Position numbers and translations under genes: made by a program. The notes under the pieces are model-generated. The model searched no databases. It had not been told where the DNA came from and saw only the letters and a program-made list of their open reading frames with translations. Shown in pieces: positions 45,467-59,802 of a stretch of 64,000 nucleotides of DNA. Positions within the stretch are counted from its first letter, which is position 1; every line of letters begins with the position of its first letter. Source of the DNA: Gammaproteobacteria bacterium (GTDB taxonomy: Bacteria > Pseudomonadota > Gammaproteobacteria > Steroidobacterales > GCA-2729495); assembly GCA_030426355.1 (NCBI GenBank), contig JAUHYQ010000006.1:62001-126000 (forward strand), given 5' to 3'.

Positions 45467-46435
45467 TTAGTCTATCAACGCCGGGGCCGGCTTTTGCTTG
45501 CGGGCATAGTCCTCGATGCTCGACAAACTCGGGCCGGTATCCTCTTCAGGTGCGTTGAGGAATTTCGGAAAATGCTTCTTGATGTAAGCCAATACCGGCG
45601 GCGATACTTCATCCACTGATTCGGCACTGTGCATGACACCTACGTACAGTACATGGCCAGGTTTATCGCCCAGCAACATCCATGGCAGCCAGGGCGTCAC
45701 ACGGTTCCAGGTACCGTGCCAACTGACGGCAGTTTTACTCGGGTCTACAAGGTCGGCAACGGGGACAAAATAGCGGAACATTTCAGATACCTGGACCATC
45801 GGACCGGATGACTCGCGCGGCCATTGGGCCGGTTGCAGTGCGTTCGGGTAGAACAGGTGCATATCGGTTTCCAGCGCCAGAGTATCCTCGCCAATTTTGC
45901 TCCAGGGCAAAATCAGCGGGATTTTTACCGGTGTCGCCGGCTTTTCGCCGCCGATATCTTCCGGTGCGATGTACATCTCGGTGGCAATATTGTAGTTGAA
46001 AGGATCGTTATCAACGTGCACGACATTAACGACTTCGCCGGTCCACGGATTGGTCCATTTATCAATGACCTCCCCGGTCCGCGGATCGGTATAAATAATG
46101 GTCTCGCGGTTTAAACGGCGGTAATTACCGTCTTCGGTCGGTATCAGTCGTGATACCGCAAAGCCCTCGAAGCCGCAAAGCACCCGAATCTTTTCACCGT
46201 CAACCACCGCCATAACCTGGCCGCGATAGCGACCAATGGCCTGATTGGATGAATCGACATCGCTGGCAATACGAGCCCAGGCATCACGGTTCCATACGGG
46301 TGATGCAAAATCTATCGTTGTTTCAAAACTCATTGATTCACCGTCCATCAGTTCACCCGCTGCCATGGCTGGCTGCATGCTGCCCAATAACAACAGGGCA
46401 GCAAGTCGTCTGTTGGCAGAATTCAGAAAAGTCAT
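45467..46435 (-). CDS. DUF1838 family exported protein
   Basis: The 322-residue protein has a signal peptide (RRLAALLLLGSMQPAMAAGE) and the DUF1838 pattern: RVLCGFEGFAVSRLIP, ETIIYTDPRTGEVIDKWTNPWTGEVVNVVHVDNDPFNYN and SWHGTWNRVTPWLPWMLLGDKPGHVLY. No biochemical role is established for the family. AGGGAG lies before the ATG at 46435; a longer frame to 46516 would run through the FNR-like box and lacks the signal start, so it is rejected. It ends 9 bases before the spinster-like MFS start, so the two are probably cotranscribed. Confidence 0.78.
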   Translation of the reverse strand: MTFLNSANRRLAALLLLGSMQPAMAAGELMDGESMSFETTIDFASPVWNRDAWARIASDVDSSNQAIGRYRGQVMAVVDGEKIRVLCGFEGFAVSRLIPTEDGNYRRLNRETIIYTDPRTGEVIDKWTNPWTGEVVNVVHVDNDPFNYNIATEMYIAPEDIGGEKPATPVKIPLILPWSKIGEDTLALETDMHLFYPNALQPAQWPRESSGPMVQVSEMFRYFVPVADLVDPSKTAVSWHGTWNRVTPWLPWMLLGDKPGHVLYVGVMHSAESVDEVSPPVLAYIKKHFPKFLNAPEEDTGPSLSSIEDYARKQKPAPALID

Positions 46436-46507: not shown

Positions 46508-46602
46508 TGAGTGCACCGGCGAATTGCTGGAAAACCACTGCTATATTTAGCACTTGAACTCACTGTGCCGCGACGCATCGGCAACACCAGGGCCAGTCAC
46601 CA

Positions 46603-47613
46603 ATGAGCAGCATCAACCGGAAAGTCGTCCTTGCATCACCCATCAACGGCATTCCGCGCGCGGACAATTTTCGACTGGTCGAAAGCCCAAGGCCGGAGCC
46701 GGGTGACGGCGAGATCCTGGTTCGACACATTTATCTTTCTCTGGATCCCTATCAGCGACCGGCCATAGCCGGCATCCATATCAGCGCGAAAAAAGCGCTC
46801 GAACAAGAAGAGGCGCCGTCTGCCGAGACGGTAGGCCAGGTGATTGCTTCGCGCCACCCCGATTTTGCGGTCGGAGACTATGTACGACACTTCGGAGGCT
46901 GGCAGGAATATTCCTTATCAGACGGACAGCAGACTTATAAGGTTGATCCCGCACTTGCACCGCTGTCGACTTATCTCGGCATACTCGGCATGCCCGGACT
47001 GACAGCTTTTGCCAGCATGATCAAACTGGCCGATGTGCAGCCGGGTCAGTCCGTACTGGTGTCGTCGGCGTCCGGGCCGGTGGGCTCCATGGTTGGTCAG
47101 ATCGCCATGCAAAAAGGCGCTACCGCATATGGCGTTGCGGGGTCCGATGACAAGTGCCGCTTTGTGGTCGACGAATTGGGCTTCGCTCAGTGTGTGAACT
47201 ACAAGGCTGCAGGGTATCCCGGGACGCTGCAGGCGGGTCTTCCCGACGGCGTCGATATCTACCACGATAACGTGGGCGGGCAGATGTTGCTCGATGCGCT
47301 GACGGTATTACGAAACTACGGCACGGTAATACTGTGCGGGCTCATCAGCCAGTACAACGAGGCCAATAAAGGGCAAAACTTCAACCTCGGGCCAGCCATT
47401 ATTAAACGGGCGGTGCTCAAAGGGCTGGTGGTCTACGACTATGAAGATCGCCGTCAGGAGTTTTTTGACCTGGTCGCGCCCTGGGTGCGAGACGGCAGAA
47501 TCAAATACCGGGAAGATCGTGCCGTTGGAATCGAAAACACCGGCGCACACTTTGAAAAGTTGATGAGCGGCCAGAACTTTGGCAAAGCACTGGTCGTGCT
47601 GGGTGACGAATAG
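46603..47613 (+). CDS. Zinc-free MDR oxidoreductase, PTGR/CurA type (copy 1)
   Basis: The 336-residue NADP-dependent reductase has SPRPEPGDGEILVRHIYLSLDPYQRP, GMPGLTAFASMIKLADVQPGQSVLVSSASGPVGSMVGQIA (nucleotide loop), GVAGSDDKCRFVVDELGF and DIYHDNVGG, the hallmarks of prostaglandin reductase/leukotriene dehydrogenase-like enzymes. They reduce activated double bonds of enones. A paralogue is at 58.7 kb. The HemF-like gene follows 48 bases downstream, so they are likely cotranscribed. Confidence 0.87.
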   Translation: MSSINRKVVLASPINGIPRADNFRLVESPRPEPGDGEILVRHIYLSLDPYQRPAIAGIHISAKKALEQEEAPSAETVGQVIASRHPDFAVGDYVRHFGGWQEYSLSDGQQTYKVDPALAPLSTYLGILGMPGLTAFASMIKLADVQPGQSVLVSSASGPVGSMVGQIAMQKGATAYGVAGSDDKCRFVVDELGFAQCVNYKAAGYPGTLQAGLPDGVDIYHDNVGGQMLLDALTVLRNYGTVILCGLISQYNEANKGQNFNLGPAIIKRAVLKGLVVYDYEDRRQEFFDLVAPWVRDGRIKYREDRAVGIENTGAHFEKLMSGQNFGKALVVLGDE

Positions 47614-47661
47614 CGCTCACTTAAGCTCAACCACGTGGTAATTAATCAGGGGGAATCCATC

Positions 47662-48594
47662 ATGAAAAGAAATGAGCCCATAGTTGCAAACCTCAACCGT
47701 CGAGAACTGCTGCACCTTGCTGCCGCGAGCGGCCTGACACTCTCGGCTGGCAGCGCATCTTCGCGCAGTCACTTTACCGCCGAAGACTCCGGCCGCGATT
47801 GGACCATTGACGATCTGACTCCGGAACAACGCGCCTTTGCGGAGCGCATGTTGGAAAAAACGGCTGAGCGCGAAGGCTTTTTTCTTGATCTGGTAAACAA
47901 ATTCAACGGCAGCCGCGATGTGGAAACCCTGAATTATGAAGACGAGAAAGCCGCGCACACTGTTCATGTGTCACGTGGTGATGTACTGGAAAAAACATCC
48001 TTCTATATTAACTACAGCAAAATGGCCTTTCCTCCCTATGTTCCGGAGGCCATTTGGGATCGCTATTACGAGTTCAATTTTCACTCTAGAACCCCGTTGC
48101 TTGGGCAACTGCATGCCACCGTGTACTTTACCTATATGGCCAGTGGGAAAAGCGCCATGGCCGGTTACATGGATTACACGCCCGCCACGTGGATCGAGGA
48201 AGACAACGCTTACCTGAAAAACATAGTCGATCAGCACTTTACGGAATATGGCCGCGATATAAAAAAGTATCGCTTGATGCTTAATTTGCCCGCTCACAAA
48301 GACAAGCTAAAGGCCGCTGCAGTAGGTGCCGCCTTTTATGTACCTCCTCTGATGGAAATCAACGAAGAGAATTTCAATTTTGTCATCGAGGCAAATCAAA
48401 AATTCGTTAACGGCTATCTCGACCTGCTGGAAAAGCGCAAAGATCAGCCCTATACCAAACAGGATCTGGAAAACCAGGCGTCCATGCGTAAACGCTGGCT
48501 GGAAGATCATCTGTTCGAGGATCCGCTGCCAATGTACGTCGTGCCTTACAAGGTATGGAGCTTTGCCGATGCGCCGCCAGTGGTCAGATTTTAA
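47662..48594 (+). CDS. Tat-exported relative of aerobic coproporphyrinogen III oxidase (HemF-like)
   Basis: The 310-residue protein starts with a twin-arginine signal (NLNRRELLHLAAASGLTL, residues 10-27). The rest follows the HemF fold in order: VSRGDVLEKTSFYIN (HemF: GGVFEKAG), PLLGQLHATVYFTYM (VPTVHxNVRYF, keeping the His), GYMDYTPATWIEEDN (GGxxDLTPxYxxEED), YGRDIKKYRLML, VGAAFYVPP (GIGGxFFDD) and a long ENFNFVIEANQKFVNGYLDLLEKRKDQPYT stretch. The arginine-rich RRGRYVEFN segment is degenerate (MRKRWLEDHLF) and the RRGIGG arginine is lost. Classic HemF is cytoplasmic, so export and altered active site suggest a new role. Resemblance is from recalled motifs, not a search. GGGGGAA precedes the ATG. 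Confidence 0.6.
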   Translation: MKRNEPIVANLNRRELLHLAAASGLTLSAGSASSRSHFTAEDSGRDWTIDDLTPEQRAFAERMLEKTAEREGFFLDLVNKFNGSRDVETLNYEDEKAAHTVHVSRGDVLEKTSFYINYSKMAFPPYVPEAIWDRYYEFNFHSRTPLLGQLHATVYFTYMASGKSAMAGYMDYTPATWIEEDNAYLKNIVDQHFTEYGRDIKKYRLMLNLPAHKDKLKAAAVGAAFYVPPLMEINEENFNFVIEANQKFVNGYLDLLEKRKDQPYTKQDLENQASMRKRWLEDHLFEDPLPMYVVPYKVWSFADAPPVVRF

Positions 48595-49711
48595 ACTCCC
48601 GGCCAACAAGTGGGACCGCGTCGAGTATCCAGTTTTTTTCCTGACGTCGGGCAGGACAGGGTATGGCTACAGCCACATCGCCACGAATTTCACGCAGCTT
48701 CTTGAGGTCGATGCGCCAGCCACGCTTCTCCCAGTCTTTCAGGTATTCGCGATAGCGCACGACCGGCTTGTCGGCCGGCACCAGTAATTCCTTGGTGGTG
48801 GTTTCCGGGGTCCGCACCGGATTAAGAACCACAAGCAGGTCGATGTCTTCCTGCGCGATTTCCATGTTTACATCTGTAATGCTCTTGTCGTGCTTGGGAT
48901 CAAGCATAAAGTGGCGCATGTTGACGAAGAAGATGCGGGTGCGGTTTTCATCAATAGGCGCTTCATAAAAGTACTGATGAAAATCGTTGCCGTTGCCAAG
49001 TAACAACCAGGTTATAAGCGCATTCGGTCCAAAATGGCCGGAGCCCCCCTGCAACTGACTGGCATCGCGTTGAATCTTGTCCGCCATCAGCCCTTGTTCT
49101 TCATGTGCCTGCGCAAATGGCATCATGAACTTGCTGCCGTAGTCGCCGATATCTGCGACATCAATCGGCTTATTGCGAAAGTCCTGCATCATGCCGGGAG
49201 TGCCCTGCTTGGGATGCACGAACTCATTGTGCGCAGGGTCCAAACCGTTTTCGACAGATCGCTCGTAATAGTAATCAACCTCGAACACCACCAGTTCATT
49301 GGCGCGCCAGGCTTCGTCTTCGAACTCGGGAATTTCATAAAGCGGGGGGCGCTCCTCTTCCGGCAGGTCCCCAAGAAAGGCAAACACGATCCCGTATTTT
49401 TCCTGCGTGGGATAACTGTCAACCTTGGCACGTGCGGGCGGCATTTCTTCTTTGCCCAGAGAGGGGATCACCGTACAACGGCCATCGCCGTTGAACTGCC
49501 AGCCGTGATAGGGGCATTCAACACAATCTTTTTTAATTTTGCCGTTACCCAGGGCACCGCCACGGTGAATACAGGTATCGCTTAGCACATGAGCGTGGCC
49601 GTCCGTGTCGCGAAAGGCAACAAAATCCAGCGACATGATGCGAGTGCGCTTCGGCGCCTCGTTAGTCACTTCATCAGAGCGGGCAACGGGATACCAGAAA
49701 TTTATGTACAT
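48584..49711 (-). CDS. Rieske non-heme iron oxygenase, terminal oxygenase subunit (copy 2)
   Basis: The 375-residue protein shares its plan with copy 1: FINFWYP-type start, CIHRGGALG and CPYHGWQFNGDGRCTVIPS Rieske motifs, then NGLDPAHNEFVHPKQG as the iron site, and VAIPCPARRQEKNWILDAVP at the C-terminus. The start at 49711 follows TTGGAG; the longer frame to 49774 lacks a ribosome site. It overlaps the convergent HemF-like gene by 11 bases. Copies 1 and 2 likely act on different intermediates of the same pathway. Confidence 0.88.
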   Translation of the reverse strand: MYINFWYPVARSDEVTNEAPKRTRIMSLDFVAFRDTDGHAHVLSDTCIHRGGALGNGKIKKDCVECPYHGWQFNGDGRCTVIPSLGKEEMPPARAKVDSYPTQEKYGIVFAFLGDLPEEERPPLYEIPEFEDEAWRANELVVFEVDYYYERSVENGLDPAHNEFVHPKQGTPGMMQDFRNKPIDVADIGDYGSKFMMPFAQAHEEQGLMADKIQRDASQLQGGSGHFGPNALITWLLLGNGNDFHQYFYEAPIDENRTRIFFVNMRHFMLDPKHDKSITDVNMEIAQEDIDLLVVLNPVRTPETTTKELLVPADKPVVRYREYLKDWEKRGWRIDLKKLREIRGDVAVAIPCPARRQEKNWILDAVPLVGREFKI

Positions 49712-49828
49712 GAAAACTCCAAAAGTTCTAGTTATTGCAGGCCCGCAACCAAAATGCGGTTCGATACCTGTCAATTGTGGATTCGCCAGGCCGATACTTC
49801 CGGTTAATTGGCACTTGCAAGAATATAG

Positions 49829-51252: not shown

Positions 51253-52194
51253 GTGGCCAGACCTCATATTGAGCCCTATGTCGAACTGAATCAGCCCTTC
51301 AAAAAGCTGGATCTGAACGGCTTCAAGGGCAGCGAATACAAAGTGCTGTCACTGGACGTCGATACCGGTGCCTGCACACTGAAAGTGCAGTTCAAAAACG
51401 GCTTCAAGCGTAACCCAGGCCTGAGCTATTCGGACATGGAGCTCTTCGTGCTGGAAGGGCGCGTCAAGGTTGGCAAGGAAACCTGGGGACGGGGGCATTA
51501 CGCCTTTATCCCTGCCGGCATGGCGATCGGTGCCATGAGCTCAGCGCAAGGCGCCGAAGTGCTGCTGATGTTTAACGACAGCGAGCCCAGCTTTTACGAA
51601 TCCGACAAAAACCATCAGCTGGCACTTACTCAAGCACATGTGTCCATGAATTCTTATCTGGATGCGCCGTGGACTTCAGGCGCCATCGTGCAGCCTGCGG
51701 CATCAAATGGCTGCATGATCAAGTTGCTGCACTATGACCCGCTCAGCGAAGCCATCACTTTTTTATACACGCTGACACCTGAGTTCATGCAGGACAACAT
51801 TTCCTATCACGACTGTTGTGAAGAGAGTTATCACATCTGGGGTACCTCCTGGATGATGCAGTTCGGCGATTTGCCAACCGGGGGTTATTTCTGGCGTCCG
51901 CCCTACATTAACCATGGATCGTTCCGCAGCAAGCGTGGCTGTATAGCATTCGGCCGCACGGATTCAAAAATACACAACTACTTCCATTTCAATCCGTGGT
52001 CTTCGCAGGCCGAGAACATGGCCCGTTCGGCTGCTCATTTGTACCGCCAGCGACCCATGATGTACGACTGGGTTGCCTCGGACGGGCACAACCACCCGCA
52101 CGGCCCGGAGGACTTTGAGCATGCTCACTACCATGACGATGCCCAGATTCGCCATCTGCATGGTCATCCGCCGAGCCCGATCAAAAGTAAATAA
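51253..52194 (+). CDS. Double-cupin (DUF4437-like) protein A
   Basis: The 313-residue protein has two cupin barrels: YSDMELFVLEGRVKVGKETWGRGHYAFIPAGM (about 58-90) and a second containing YHDCCEESYHIWGTSWMMQFGDLPTGGYFWRPPYINHGSF (about 190-230). The C-terminal tail is very rich in His (HNHPHGPEDFEHAHYHDD, then HLHGH), a probable metal-binding segment. The start is GTG after AAGGAG. The next gene is a close tandem paralogue. The reaction is unknown; metal-dependent isomerase, lyase or sensor roles are possible. Confidence 0.75.
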   Translation: MARPHIEPYVELNQPFKKLDLNGFKGSEYKVLSLDVDTGACTLKVQFKNGFKRNPGLSYSDMELFVLEGRVKVGKETWGRGHYAFIPAGMAIGAMSSAQGAEVLLMFNDSEPSFYESDKNHQLALTQAHVSMNSYLDAPWTSGAIVQPAASNGCMIKLLHYDPLSEAITFLYTLTPEFMQDNISYHDCCEESYHIWGTSWMMQFGDLPTGGYFWRPPYINHGSFRSKRGCIAFGRTDSKIHNYFHFNPWSSQAENMARSAAHLYRQRPMMYDWVASDGHNHPHGPEDFEHAHYHDDAQIRHLHGHPPSPIKSK

Positions 52195-52229
52195 TTTTTG
52201 GACCTTAGAGTGTTTCAGGAGAACGGCAA

Positions 52230-53165
52230 GTGGCACGACCACACATCGAACCTTATGTGGAGCTAGACACTCCCTATAAAAAACTGGATCTGAACGGCTT
52301 CAAAGGCAGCGAATATAAAGCGCTGTCGCTGGATATCGATACCGGTGCCTGCACACTGAAAGTGCAGTTCAATAACGGCTTCAAGCGCAAACCCGGCCTG
52401 AGCTATTCCGACATGGAGATCTTCGTGCTGGAAGGGCGTATCAAGGTGGGTAAGGAGGTCTGGGGACGTGGCCACCACGCGTTTGTCCCGGCGGGCATGG
52501 CTCTGGGCGCGATGCAGTCGGAACCCGGGGCCGAAGTGCTGCTGATGTTCAACGACAGCGAGCCCAGCTTTTACGAATCGGACAAGAATCATCAGCTGGC
52601 ACTTACCGCAGCCTTTACGTCGCTGAACAGTTATCAGGATGCGCCCTGGGCGCCCGCTACCCTTGCCAATCCGTCGGTGGCATCTGGCTGCATGCTAAAG
52701 GTGCTGCGGTACGACCCGATTACCGAAGCCTGCAGTTTTCTGTACTGCATGTCACCGGAGTATGCACAGGACAATATCTCGTACCACGACTGTGCCGAAG
52801 AGAGTTATCACATTTGGGGGACGTCATGGATGATGCAGTTCGGCGATCTGCCAACCGGTGGCTATTTCTGGCGCCCACCGTGGATCAACCACGGCGCATT
52901 CCGTTGTGAACGAGGCACCATTGCATTCGGACGCACTGACTCGAAGTTGCACAATTACTTCCACTTTAATCCGTGGTCGAACCCGGATGAGAATCTTCAC
53001 CGGGCAGCCGCGCATCTTTACCGGCAACGTCCCACGTTGTTCCAGTGGGTAGCCACGGATGGCCACAATCATCCGCACGGTCCGGACGATTTCGAGTATC
53101 CGCATTACCACGACGATGCCCAGGTGCGGCATTTGCATGGCCATACGCCCAACGAGATTAAGTAG
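52230..53165 (+). CDS. Double-cupin (DUF4437-like) protein B
   Basis: The 311-residue paralogue of protein A is alike over its whole length, with long runs identical in both, including KKLDLNGFKGSEYK and NISYHDC. It has the same two cupins and the same His-rich tail (HNHPHGPDDFEYPHYHDD). GTG start after AGGAGAA. The two genes are 35 bases apart and probably arose by tandem duplication; retention of both suggests a hetero-oligomer or distinct substrates. Confidence 0.75.
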   Translation: MARPHIEPYVELDTPYKKLDLNGFKGSEYKALSLDIDTGACTLKVQFNNGFKRKPGLSYSDMEIFVLEGRIKVGKEVWGRGHHAFVPAGMALGAMQSEPGAEVLLMFNDSEPSFYESDKNHQLALTAAFTSLNSYQDAPWAPATLANPSVASGCMLKVLRYDPITEACSFLYCMSPEYAQDNISYHDCAEESYHIWGTSWMMQFGDLPTGGYFWRPPWINHGAFRCERGTIAFGRTDSKLHNYFHFNPWSNPDENLHRAAAHLYRQRPTLFQWVATDGHNHPHGPDDFEYPHYHDDAQVRHLHGHTPNEIK

Positions 53166-58746: not shown

Positions 58747-59802
58747 ATGACAACTAATTTGAATCGTCAATGGCGTGTAGCGCGTTACCCCAAACCGGAG
58801 GAAATCATCGGGCCGGAGCACTTTGAATGGGTTAGCGAGCCGGTCACCGAGCCCGGTGACGGCGAGTTCCTGGTGCGGACCATTTGTCTTGCCCCGGTGC
58901 CGGCCCAGCGAGGTTATCTGGAAAAGAGCCACGATTCCTTTCTGGAGAACCTCCCGATCGGCGAGGTGATGCGCGGCCGGGGGGTTGGCCAAATCGTCAA
59001 ATCAAGGCACCCCGACTACCAGGCCGGAGAAATTTTTGTCGGCTCTTTGGGCTGGCAAGATTATTCAATCCAGCGTCCGCGGGGGTCTGAGTTTGTCTTC
59101 AGCACCAAAAAGGTCAAAAACCCCATCCGCCCATTGTCGACCGAATTGAGTCTGCTCGGCCAGGCCGGCGCAACAGCGTATTTTGGCCTGCTGGAAACCG
59201 GGAAAATGAAGGCCGGTGACTGTGTGCTGGTTTCAGCAGCAGCAGGTGGGGTGGGTTCTGCGGCCGGGCAAATTGCCCGAATCAAAGGCGCAAAAAAGGT
59301 GGTTGGCATCGCCGGGTCTGACGAAAAATGCCGATGGCTGATCGACACCTTGCGTTACGACGATGCCATCAATTACAAAACCGAGAACGTTGGTGACCGC
59401 ATCAAGGAACTATTTCCCGACGGCATTGACGTGTTTTTCGACAATGTCGGTGGCGGAATCCTCAATGCTGGGCTTGCCAATCTGGCGATGCACGCCCGGA
59501 TTGTGATCTGCGGGTTTATCTCGACCGACTATTCACCGGGGCCGCACCACGGCCCCATTAACTATCAGTGCATTGTTTACAAACGGGCGCGTATCGAAGG
59601 CTTTGTGGTCTTTGATTACTGGGAACAATATGAAAAGGCTGAGCGTGATTTGTTCGAGTGGTATCGCAGCGGCGAACTGATTAATGCCGAAGACGAAGAT
59701 AAGGGCCTTGAAATGATGCCCGATTCACTTGCCAGCCTGTTTCGCGGCGGCAACACCGGAGTCAAGATCTGCCGGGTAAGCCCGGATCCGGATATATTCT
59801 AA
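58747..59802 (+). CDS. Zinc-free MDR oxidoreductase, PTGR/CurA type (copy 2)
   Basis: The 351-residue paralogue of the 46.6 kb reductase has EPGDGEFLVRTICLAPVPAQRGYLE, LLGQAGATAYFGLLETGKMKAGDCVLVSAAAGGVGSAAGQIARIKGA, GIAGSDEKCRWLIDTL and DVFFDNVGGGILNAGL. It likely reduces an enone or unsaturated acyl intermediate with NADPH. The ATG at 58747 follows AAGG; an in-frame start at 58717 is less likely. Its stop overlaps the convergent FNR-like gene by 4 bases. Confidence 0.87.
   Translation: MTTNLNRQWRVARYPKPEEIIGPEHFEWVSEPVTEPGDGEFLVRTICLAPVPAQRGYLEKSHDSFLENLPIGEVMRGRGVGQIVKSRHPDYQAGEIFVGSLGWQDYSIQRPRGSEFVFSTKKVKNPIRPLSTELSLLGQAGATAYFGLLETGKMKAGDCVLVSAAAGGVGSAAGQIARIKGAKKVVGIAGSDEKCRWLIDTLRYDDAINYKTENVGDRIKELFPDGIDVFFDNVGGGILNAGLANLAMHARIVICGFISTDYSPGPHHGPINYQCIVYKRARIEGFVVFDYWEQYEKAERDLFEWYRSGELINAEDEDKGLEMMPDSLASLFRGGNTGVKICRVSPDPDIF

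Follow-up and report, generated by a model that had tools for sequence, protein, structure and literature searches.

The window analysed here, a 64,000-nucleotide stretch of a gammaproteobacterial contig, carries at 47662..48594 on the forward strand a gene for a 310-residue protein that combines a HemF fold, recognised by Pfam, a PDB profile search and a structural model, with a Tat-type signal. We refer to the new family that contains it as HFL. The reading frame called in the preliminary description is a genuine gene, which opens with an ATG at 47662 behind a good ribosome-binding site that can be read directly from the sequence (AGGGGGA, 47648..47654, forward strand). The N-terminal Tat-type signal region, NRRELLHLAAASGLTLSAG, spans residues 1-44 (47662..47793, forward strand) and has a pLDDT below 50 in the model. 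Promoter and terminator signals in the flanks of the gene do not rise above chance, and a scan of the window for tRNA and Rfam families found none.

Upstream of HFL, in the same direction and separated from it by 48 nucleotides, lies an enone-reductase gene for a curcumin-reductase-like protein of the MDR family (MDR1; 46603..47613, forward strand). MDR1 stands between HFL and a gene on the reverse strand, about 1.2 kb from HFL, that encodes a DUF1838 protein with an export-like N-terminus (45467..46435, ATG start taken in a frame that opens at 46516). On the other side, a Rieske oxygenase gene (VanA_C; 48584..49774, reverse strand) converges with HFL and is not conserved as its neighbour. The island holds a second MDR-family reductase, MDR2 (58747..59802, forward strand, ATG start taken). 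Both MDR proteins are curcumin-reductase-like, although neither, at 327 and 272 bits, reaches the equivalog cut-off of 440. The other genes of the island, which include Rieske, CaiB, acyl-CoA ligase and UbiD genes, look like general aromatic/terpenoid catabolism. At 51253-53165, the window also encodes a tandem pair of closely similar proteins, the first of which matches DUF4437 and a cupin domain.

The preliminary description had proposed a HemF-like fold, and the profile search and model comparison that it suggested both lead to HemF. The Pfam family Coprogen_oxidas (PF01218) matches residues 140-286 with 37.5 bits, above its cut-off of 31.8 (E 1.4e-9), whereas the NCBIfam HemF equivalog PRK05330.1 reaches only 41.2 bits, about one-seventh of its cut-off of 297. 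A phmmer search of the PDB at E up to 10 returned 13 distinct sequences, the top nine of which are all HemF (best E 2.6e-7) and the remaining four unrelated (E 0.14 to 0.96). Likewise, a profile of 37 homologues searched against the PDB at E up to 1 gave ten matches, nine of them HemF (E 9.4e-15 to 3.2e-5) and one unrelated (E 0.19), and hhalign scored the alignment of HFL with 12 canonical HemF proteins at 96.9% (E 1.6e-10).

The AlphaFold2 model of the window protein, built from 37 rows, has a mean pLDDT of 83.6 and a pTM of 0.81, and DSSP assigns it six strands of at least three residues, plus helices. In Foldseek, the first 19 chains are HemF (E 1.6e-9 to 4e-6), followed from about 1e-4 by RCCR, PcyA and phytochromobilin synthase. 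VIA-align places the best HemF structure at Z 26.9 (rmsd 2.5 over 246 residues); ten HemF entries lie at Z 24-27 with 244-255 aligned residues, two partial ones at Z 18-19 with 199-210, the bilin reductases at Z about 12-17 and RCCR at 14.5. Among the best 50 VIA-align entries, 44 score Z above 5; two of these are the chloroplast FtsHi-motor entries 8xks and 8xqw (Z about 16), and all others belong to HemF, the bilin reductases or RCCR. The next entry scores 4.6; for both Foldseek and VIA-align, the absence of a family from the results is no test of that family. Neither the profile searches nor the structure searches placed the protein in an unrelated family, and we conclude with high confidence that it is a member of the HemF superfamily bearing an export signal.

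We compared 37 HFL rows with 16 canonical HemF proteins of the same order, using the numbering of the window protein. At the following positions, one residue is common to both sets and reaches a frequency of 85% or more in each: G106, G113, P124, H141, P145, V147, H151, G167, G168, D181, G222, Y252, R259, Q272, R276, L284, D287, P305 and P306, with the window protein itself deviating at three of these columns (S113, L147 and A167). Conversely, the columns of the HemF residues R114, H148, K167, D171, R183, R239, Y243, F246, N247 and R263 are changed in most or all HFL members, and the last ~30 residues of HemF are missing from the family. R105, M275, W279, D282, P295 and W299 are shared by all 37 HFL rows but not by HemF; K111 is likewise invariant in HFL and occurs in 8 of the 16 canonical proteins. 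Of the HemF residues R114, H148, R183, R239, R242 and N247, all invariant in the canonical set, the window protein retains only the equivalent of R242, its R278. HemF R114 and D133 presumably correspond to human Arg262 and Asp282, respectively. The alignment bears out the earlier claim that the arginine of the RRGIGG motif has been lost. The companion claim for the RRGRYVEFN motif holds only in part, since its second arginine is retained as R276, a residue present in 36 of 37 homologues, and R278 of the window protein stands at the third. The aspartate column of the DLTP motif (D171 in the window protein) is aspartate in 20 of 37 HFL members and glycine in the other 17, which makes a single chemistry across the family doubtful. 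With the columns of HemF R114, H148, R183 and R239 changed, HFL probably does not bind coproporphyrinogen in the manner of HemF. Since the defining HemF features that we tested are absent, HFL is, with high confidence, not HemF proper.

The N-terminus of the window protein, MKRNEPIVANLNRRELLHLAAASGLTLSAG, is of the twin-arginine type, in line with the Tat signal proposed earlier, and its closest homologue (G008/L005, 55-56% identity) begins with NRRDLIHLATGTG. Both show the Tat pattern, in which a weakly hydrophobic stretch comes after a twin arginine, and the best 12-mer of the window protein has a mean hydropathy of 1.61. A simple hydropathy test, which looks upstream of the domain for a 12-residue hydrophobic segment without D, E, K or R, detected an export-like segment in 42 of 43 distinct HFL proteins; the single failure, L009, has a segment of 11 residues. 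Only 2 of the 16 canonical HemF proteins pass the same test, both in extensions that precede a later ATG. An RR pair lies ahead of the segment in ten HFL proteins and a lipobox-like motif occurs in six, by loose tests of which some hits are unconvincing by eye; clear Tat-type signals are seen by eye in the window protein, L005, L072 and L098. Computation shows predicted export-type N-termini to be a family-wide trait of HFL.

Searching 60 genomes, namely 37 from the bacterial family to which the window belongs (f1, with the source genome included) and 23 others of the order, we obtained matches to the window protein in 30. Twenty-three of these fall among the 37 f1 genomes, so that 14 f1 genomes are without HFL; the other seven are weak (E 3e-5 to 7e-4) and correspond to canonical HemF genes, leaving HFL proper in none of the 23 genomes outside f1. 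Across 369 genomes drawn from the class, HFL was found at E 1e-15 in one, the source genome itself. Accordingly, among the sampled genomes the export-signal-bearing HFL family is confined to one bacterial family. The source genome holds two copies, that of the window (C3) and one at C4:431567-432295, which has a Sec-type start and shares 34% identity with the first. A single-protein scan of the GTDB contig collection with the window protein found nothing, and a pattern-based alignment scan, which can miss members, recovered 37 HFL loci there. Thirty-six of these were used in alignment A2, from which L100 (a 138-base fragment) and the second copies in L064 and L070 were omitted. The loci are labelled mostly as gammaproteobacterial, Chromatiales or Nevskiales MAGs, together with one Woeseia sp., several Alphaproteobacteria and one Marinimicrobia. 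In a phylogenetic tree, 40 HFL rows are parted from the 16 canonical HemF proteins by one branch with 100/100 support; L072 and L098 form long branches, and L072 is possibly drawn falsely to canonical HemF. A mobile origin of HFL was considered and rejected, relatives being absent from the viral_contigs and plasmids collections. Elsewhere in the order, another family carries a further divergent HemF-like protein (L050:1267-2376 and L051:1414-2496, in G044 and G057), with 97 and 92 bits to PF01218 and, by eye, no obvious export signal.

The gene neighbourhoods of HFL homologues vary and are, by eye, often catabolic. In G008, the closest HFL (55% identity) sits between two MDR genes, the preceding one orthologous to MDR1 (67% identity) and the following one to MDR2 (65%). 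On the strength of this one relative, the gene order ties the window HFL to a putative catabolic pathway and not to heme supply alone. A Rieske motif was detected at 1 of 36 homologue loci from the GTDB contig collection and near both HFL copies of the source genome; the test, being based on a motif, may overlook divergent Rieske domains, and the flanks of many loci are short. As a general rule, a Rieske oxygenase as the fixed partner of HFL, in a pair like PaO/RCCR, is thereby rejected. The preliminary description had envisaged a Tat-exported HemF paralogue in a catabolic island with Rieske oxygenases; the profile, model and signal data uphold the paralogue and its signal, and the Rieske link does not extend to the family.

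The late steps of heme biosynthesis are largely missing from f1. Canonical HemF is found in 0 of 37 f1 genomes versus 16 of 23 other genomes of the order, HemN over its cut-off in 2 versus 13, HemE at 270 bits or more in 6 (five over the cut-off, with a seventh, weak match at 27 bits) versus 20, and ferrochelatase above 200 bits in 4 versus 20. Twenty-eight of the 37 f1 genomes lack all four of HemE, canonical HemF, HemN and canonical-level HemH, as do 23 of the 28 f1 genomes whose completeness reaches 90% or more. HemB is retained in 32 of 37, and COX1 genes are present in 35. In the source genome, which is 99.69% complete, searches recovered neither canonical HemF nor HemE, no HemN above the cut-off and no HemH at canonical level, which also answers the earlier call to look for a canonical hemF or hemN elsewhere in it. 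Canonical HemF and HemN can therefore be set aside as the coproporphyrinogen oxidase of this cell; its one match to the HemN profile (146 bits versus a cut-off of 325) is, judging by its motif, presumably HemW, and the only match to ferrochelatase, at 34 bits, is a distant protein with a membrane anchor. The genome also encodes CysG (570 bits, cut-off 400), beside which lies a hydroxymethylbilane synthase match just below cut-off (152.7 versus 164). A match to glutamyl-tRNA reductase is very weak (22 bits). The siroheme route is thus at least partly present. Since COX1 and, in the source genome, a heme O synthase over its cut-off persist despite the missing HemE, HemF, HemN and HemH, the f1 bacteria likely depend on heme, as judged from searches for these four enzymes. 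One study describes heme auxotrophy as common among uncultured bacteria (PMC11139205).

Other relatives of heme enzymes in f1 also carry export-type N-termini. HemE proteins lie behind twin-arginine-type signals in three genomes (G030, L125:4825-5964; G033, L133:6443-7675; G034, L149:5959-7164); they score 354-370 bits against an NCBIfam equivalog cut-off of 303, and the alignment shows intact RQAGR and SD motifs, which we take to be the catalytic motifs of HemE. HemD-like proteins with a Sec-type start are found in G030 (73 bits to HemD, cut-off 275) and in G034, the latter placed solely by its likeness to the G030 protein. In G030, the HemE and HemD-like genes adjoin one for a protein that reads by eye as a TonB receptor. 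No signals were seen on the HemE and HemD-like proteins encoded by G010 and G022; in these two genomes a HemB search gave no match, and clusters at L130 and L131 combine three HemE paralogues with HemD-like proteins and geranylgeranyl-reductase-like flavoproteins.

A ferrochelatase-like family of ~490 residues is present in 17 of 37 f1 genomes and 1 of 23 other genomes of the order, with an N-terminal hydrophobic segment in 17 of 18 sequences, the remaining frame being overlong. The member in the source genome (L121:2721-4376, alignment A3) exceeds the Pfam cut-off (32.5 versus 27 bits). A 17-row profile of the family had no match in the PDB at E up to 1, hhalign scored it at 9.3% against five canonical HemH proteins, and the family is only weakly tied to HemH. 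It keeps the histidine motif SVHGMP and close variants, and forms tandem pairs in some genomes. A Tat-type DUF1838 gene adjoins 2 of 15 ferrochelatase-like loci (L121 of the source genome and L137 of G004) and lies about 3 kb off at a third (L144 of G033); DUF1838 had no meaningful match in the PDB (three at E 0.84-0.88), and a search for viral relatives found none. HFL and the ferrochelatase-like protein occur together in 11 of 37 f1 genomes and are both lacking in 8. This co-occurrence does not exceed chance (Fisher p = 1), and it lends no support within f1 to the two as one obligate system.

The window protein appears to be a HemF relative turned exported protein, its active site rebuilt, in a lineage that has mostly lost the late heme enzymes; the HemF fold thus seems to have taken on a new extracytoplasmic job. 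The reading that we favour, to which we give an even chance, is that the window protein belongs to a new HemF-fold family, is exported to the periplasm, most likely to bind or oxidise a tetrapyrrole-like compound there, and does not serve as the cell's own coproporphyrinogen oxidase. A tetrapyrrole-type ligand can be proposed with moderate confidence from the fold, the lineage and the other exported enzymes. HFL would fold in the cytoplasm, be carried by Tat to the periplasm, and hold a tetrapyrrole or a linear-tetrapyrrole-like ligand in a pocket between the sheet and the C-terminal helices. The kept residues H141, H151, D171, D181 and R276, along with the family-typical R105, R134, W279, D282 and W299, may act in this putative pocket. 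The reaction would probably be a cofactor-free, oxygen-using oxidation or decarboxylation like that of HemF, whose product might be imported and handed to the island reductases MDR1 and MDR2.

A new enzymatic function could also concern a different kind of substrate. The catabolic island around HFL, the MDR1-HFL-MDR2 linkage in G008, the replaced HemF residues and the varied, often catabolic-looking neighbourhoods of homologues would all suit an exported enzyme that uses the HemF scaffold on an aromatic, enone or terpenoid compound, although the high-Z structural neighbours are nearly all tetrapyrrole-binding and the lineage is mostly without the late heme route; we regard such a substrate as possible, yet clearly less probable than a tetrapyrrole. 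That a lineage with COX1 in 35 of 37 genomes and, in the source genome, its own heme O synthase makes do without the route also agrees with a non-catalytic heme- or porphyrin-binding protein of the periplasm or surface that aids tetrapyrrole scavenging. Lipoprotein-type members and the 17 of 37 proteins without the DLTP aspartate fit such a binder, but HFL is absent from 14 of 37 f1 genomes, 8 of which lack the ferrochelatase-like protein as well, which means that HFL is not required for heme supply everywhere, and we consider a pure binder improbable. The HemF fold, the kept H141, H151 and D171, and the Tat-type HemE of three relatives could even point to a true coproporphyrinogen oxidase that acts outside the cytoplasm on exogenous coproporphyrinogen. 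Against this stand the HemF equivalog score of 41 versus 297, the replaced HemF arginines and the lack of HemE in the source genome, and we judge it very unlikely.

Beyond the favoured reading of a periplasmic tetrapyrrole-binding or -oxidising HFL, f1 may have relocated part of its tetrapyrrole metabolism outside the cytoplasm. Exported HemD-like (Sec), HemE (Tat) and HemF-like (Sec, Tat or lipoprotein) proteins, together with the membrane-anchored ferrochelatase-like proteins, would then salvage, remodel or degrade environmental porphyrins and related pigments, as a substitute for the late heme steps lost from the cytosol. The independent occurrence of HFL and the ferrochelatase-like family in f1, the 8 of 37 f1 genomes that contain neither of them, and the signal-free HemE and HemD-like proteins of G010 and G022 speak against such an integrated system, which we put forward tentatively and hold to be rather doubtful.

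Compared with known systems, HFL resembles HemF/CgdC, the oxygen-dependent coproporphyrinogen III oxidase (PF01218), in its full fold, its collinear motifs and the shared H141, H151, D181, G222, R259, Q272, R276, D287 and P305-P306; it differs in the export-like N-terminus, the replaced R114, H148, R183 and R239 columns and its own invariant residues. HemF enzymes are known as cytoplasmic or organellar enzymes of the heme pathway. The model also shares its overall fold with PcyA, PebA, PebB, PebS, phytochromobilin synthase and RCCR (Z about 12-17), but the bilin reductases and RCCR show only 6-11% identity to HFL and do not appear among the PDB profile matches with E up to 1; the bilin reductases are ferredoxin-driven. 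According to one review, the exact mechanism of HemF is unknown and an added cofactor is apparently not needed (PMC7242693). HemF2 of the tolyporphin clusters is described in the available parts of two reports as a paralogue of HemF that acts on a different tetrapyrrole (PMC10548856, PMC10459692). By description, its changed pocket and other tetrapyrrole substrate parallel what is proposed for HFL; unlike HFL, it is biosynthetic and belongs to a cyanobacterial hem/tol cluster, and those parts mention no export signal. The accessible portion of PMC10740692 gave no match for HemF or export, and a literature search for an exported HemF or ferrochelatase, with most subscription papers outside its reach, found none.

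A whole family of HemF-fold proteins bearing export signals would put this fold to a new use. It raises the question of where the f1 bacteria, which have heme-copper oxidase genes but are mostly without HemE, HemF, HemN and HemH, obtain their heme, and, further, whether porphyrins or chlorophyll-type pigments are processed in their periplasm.
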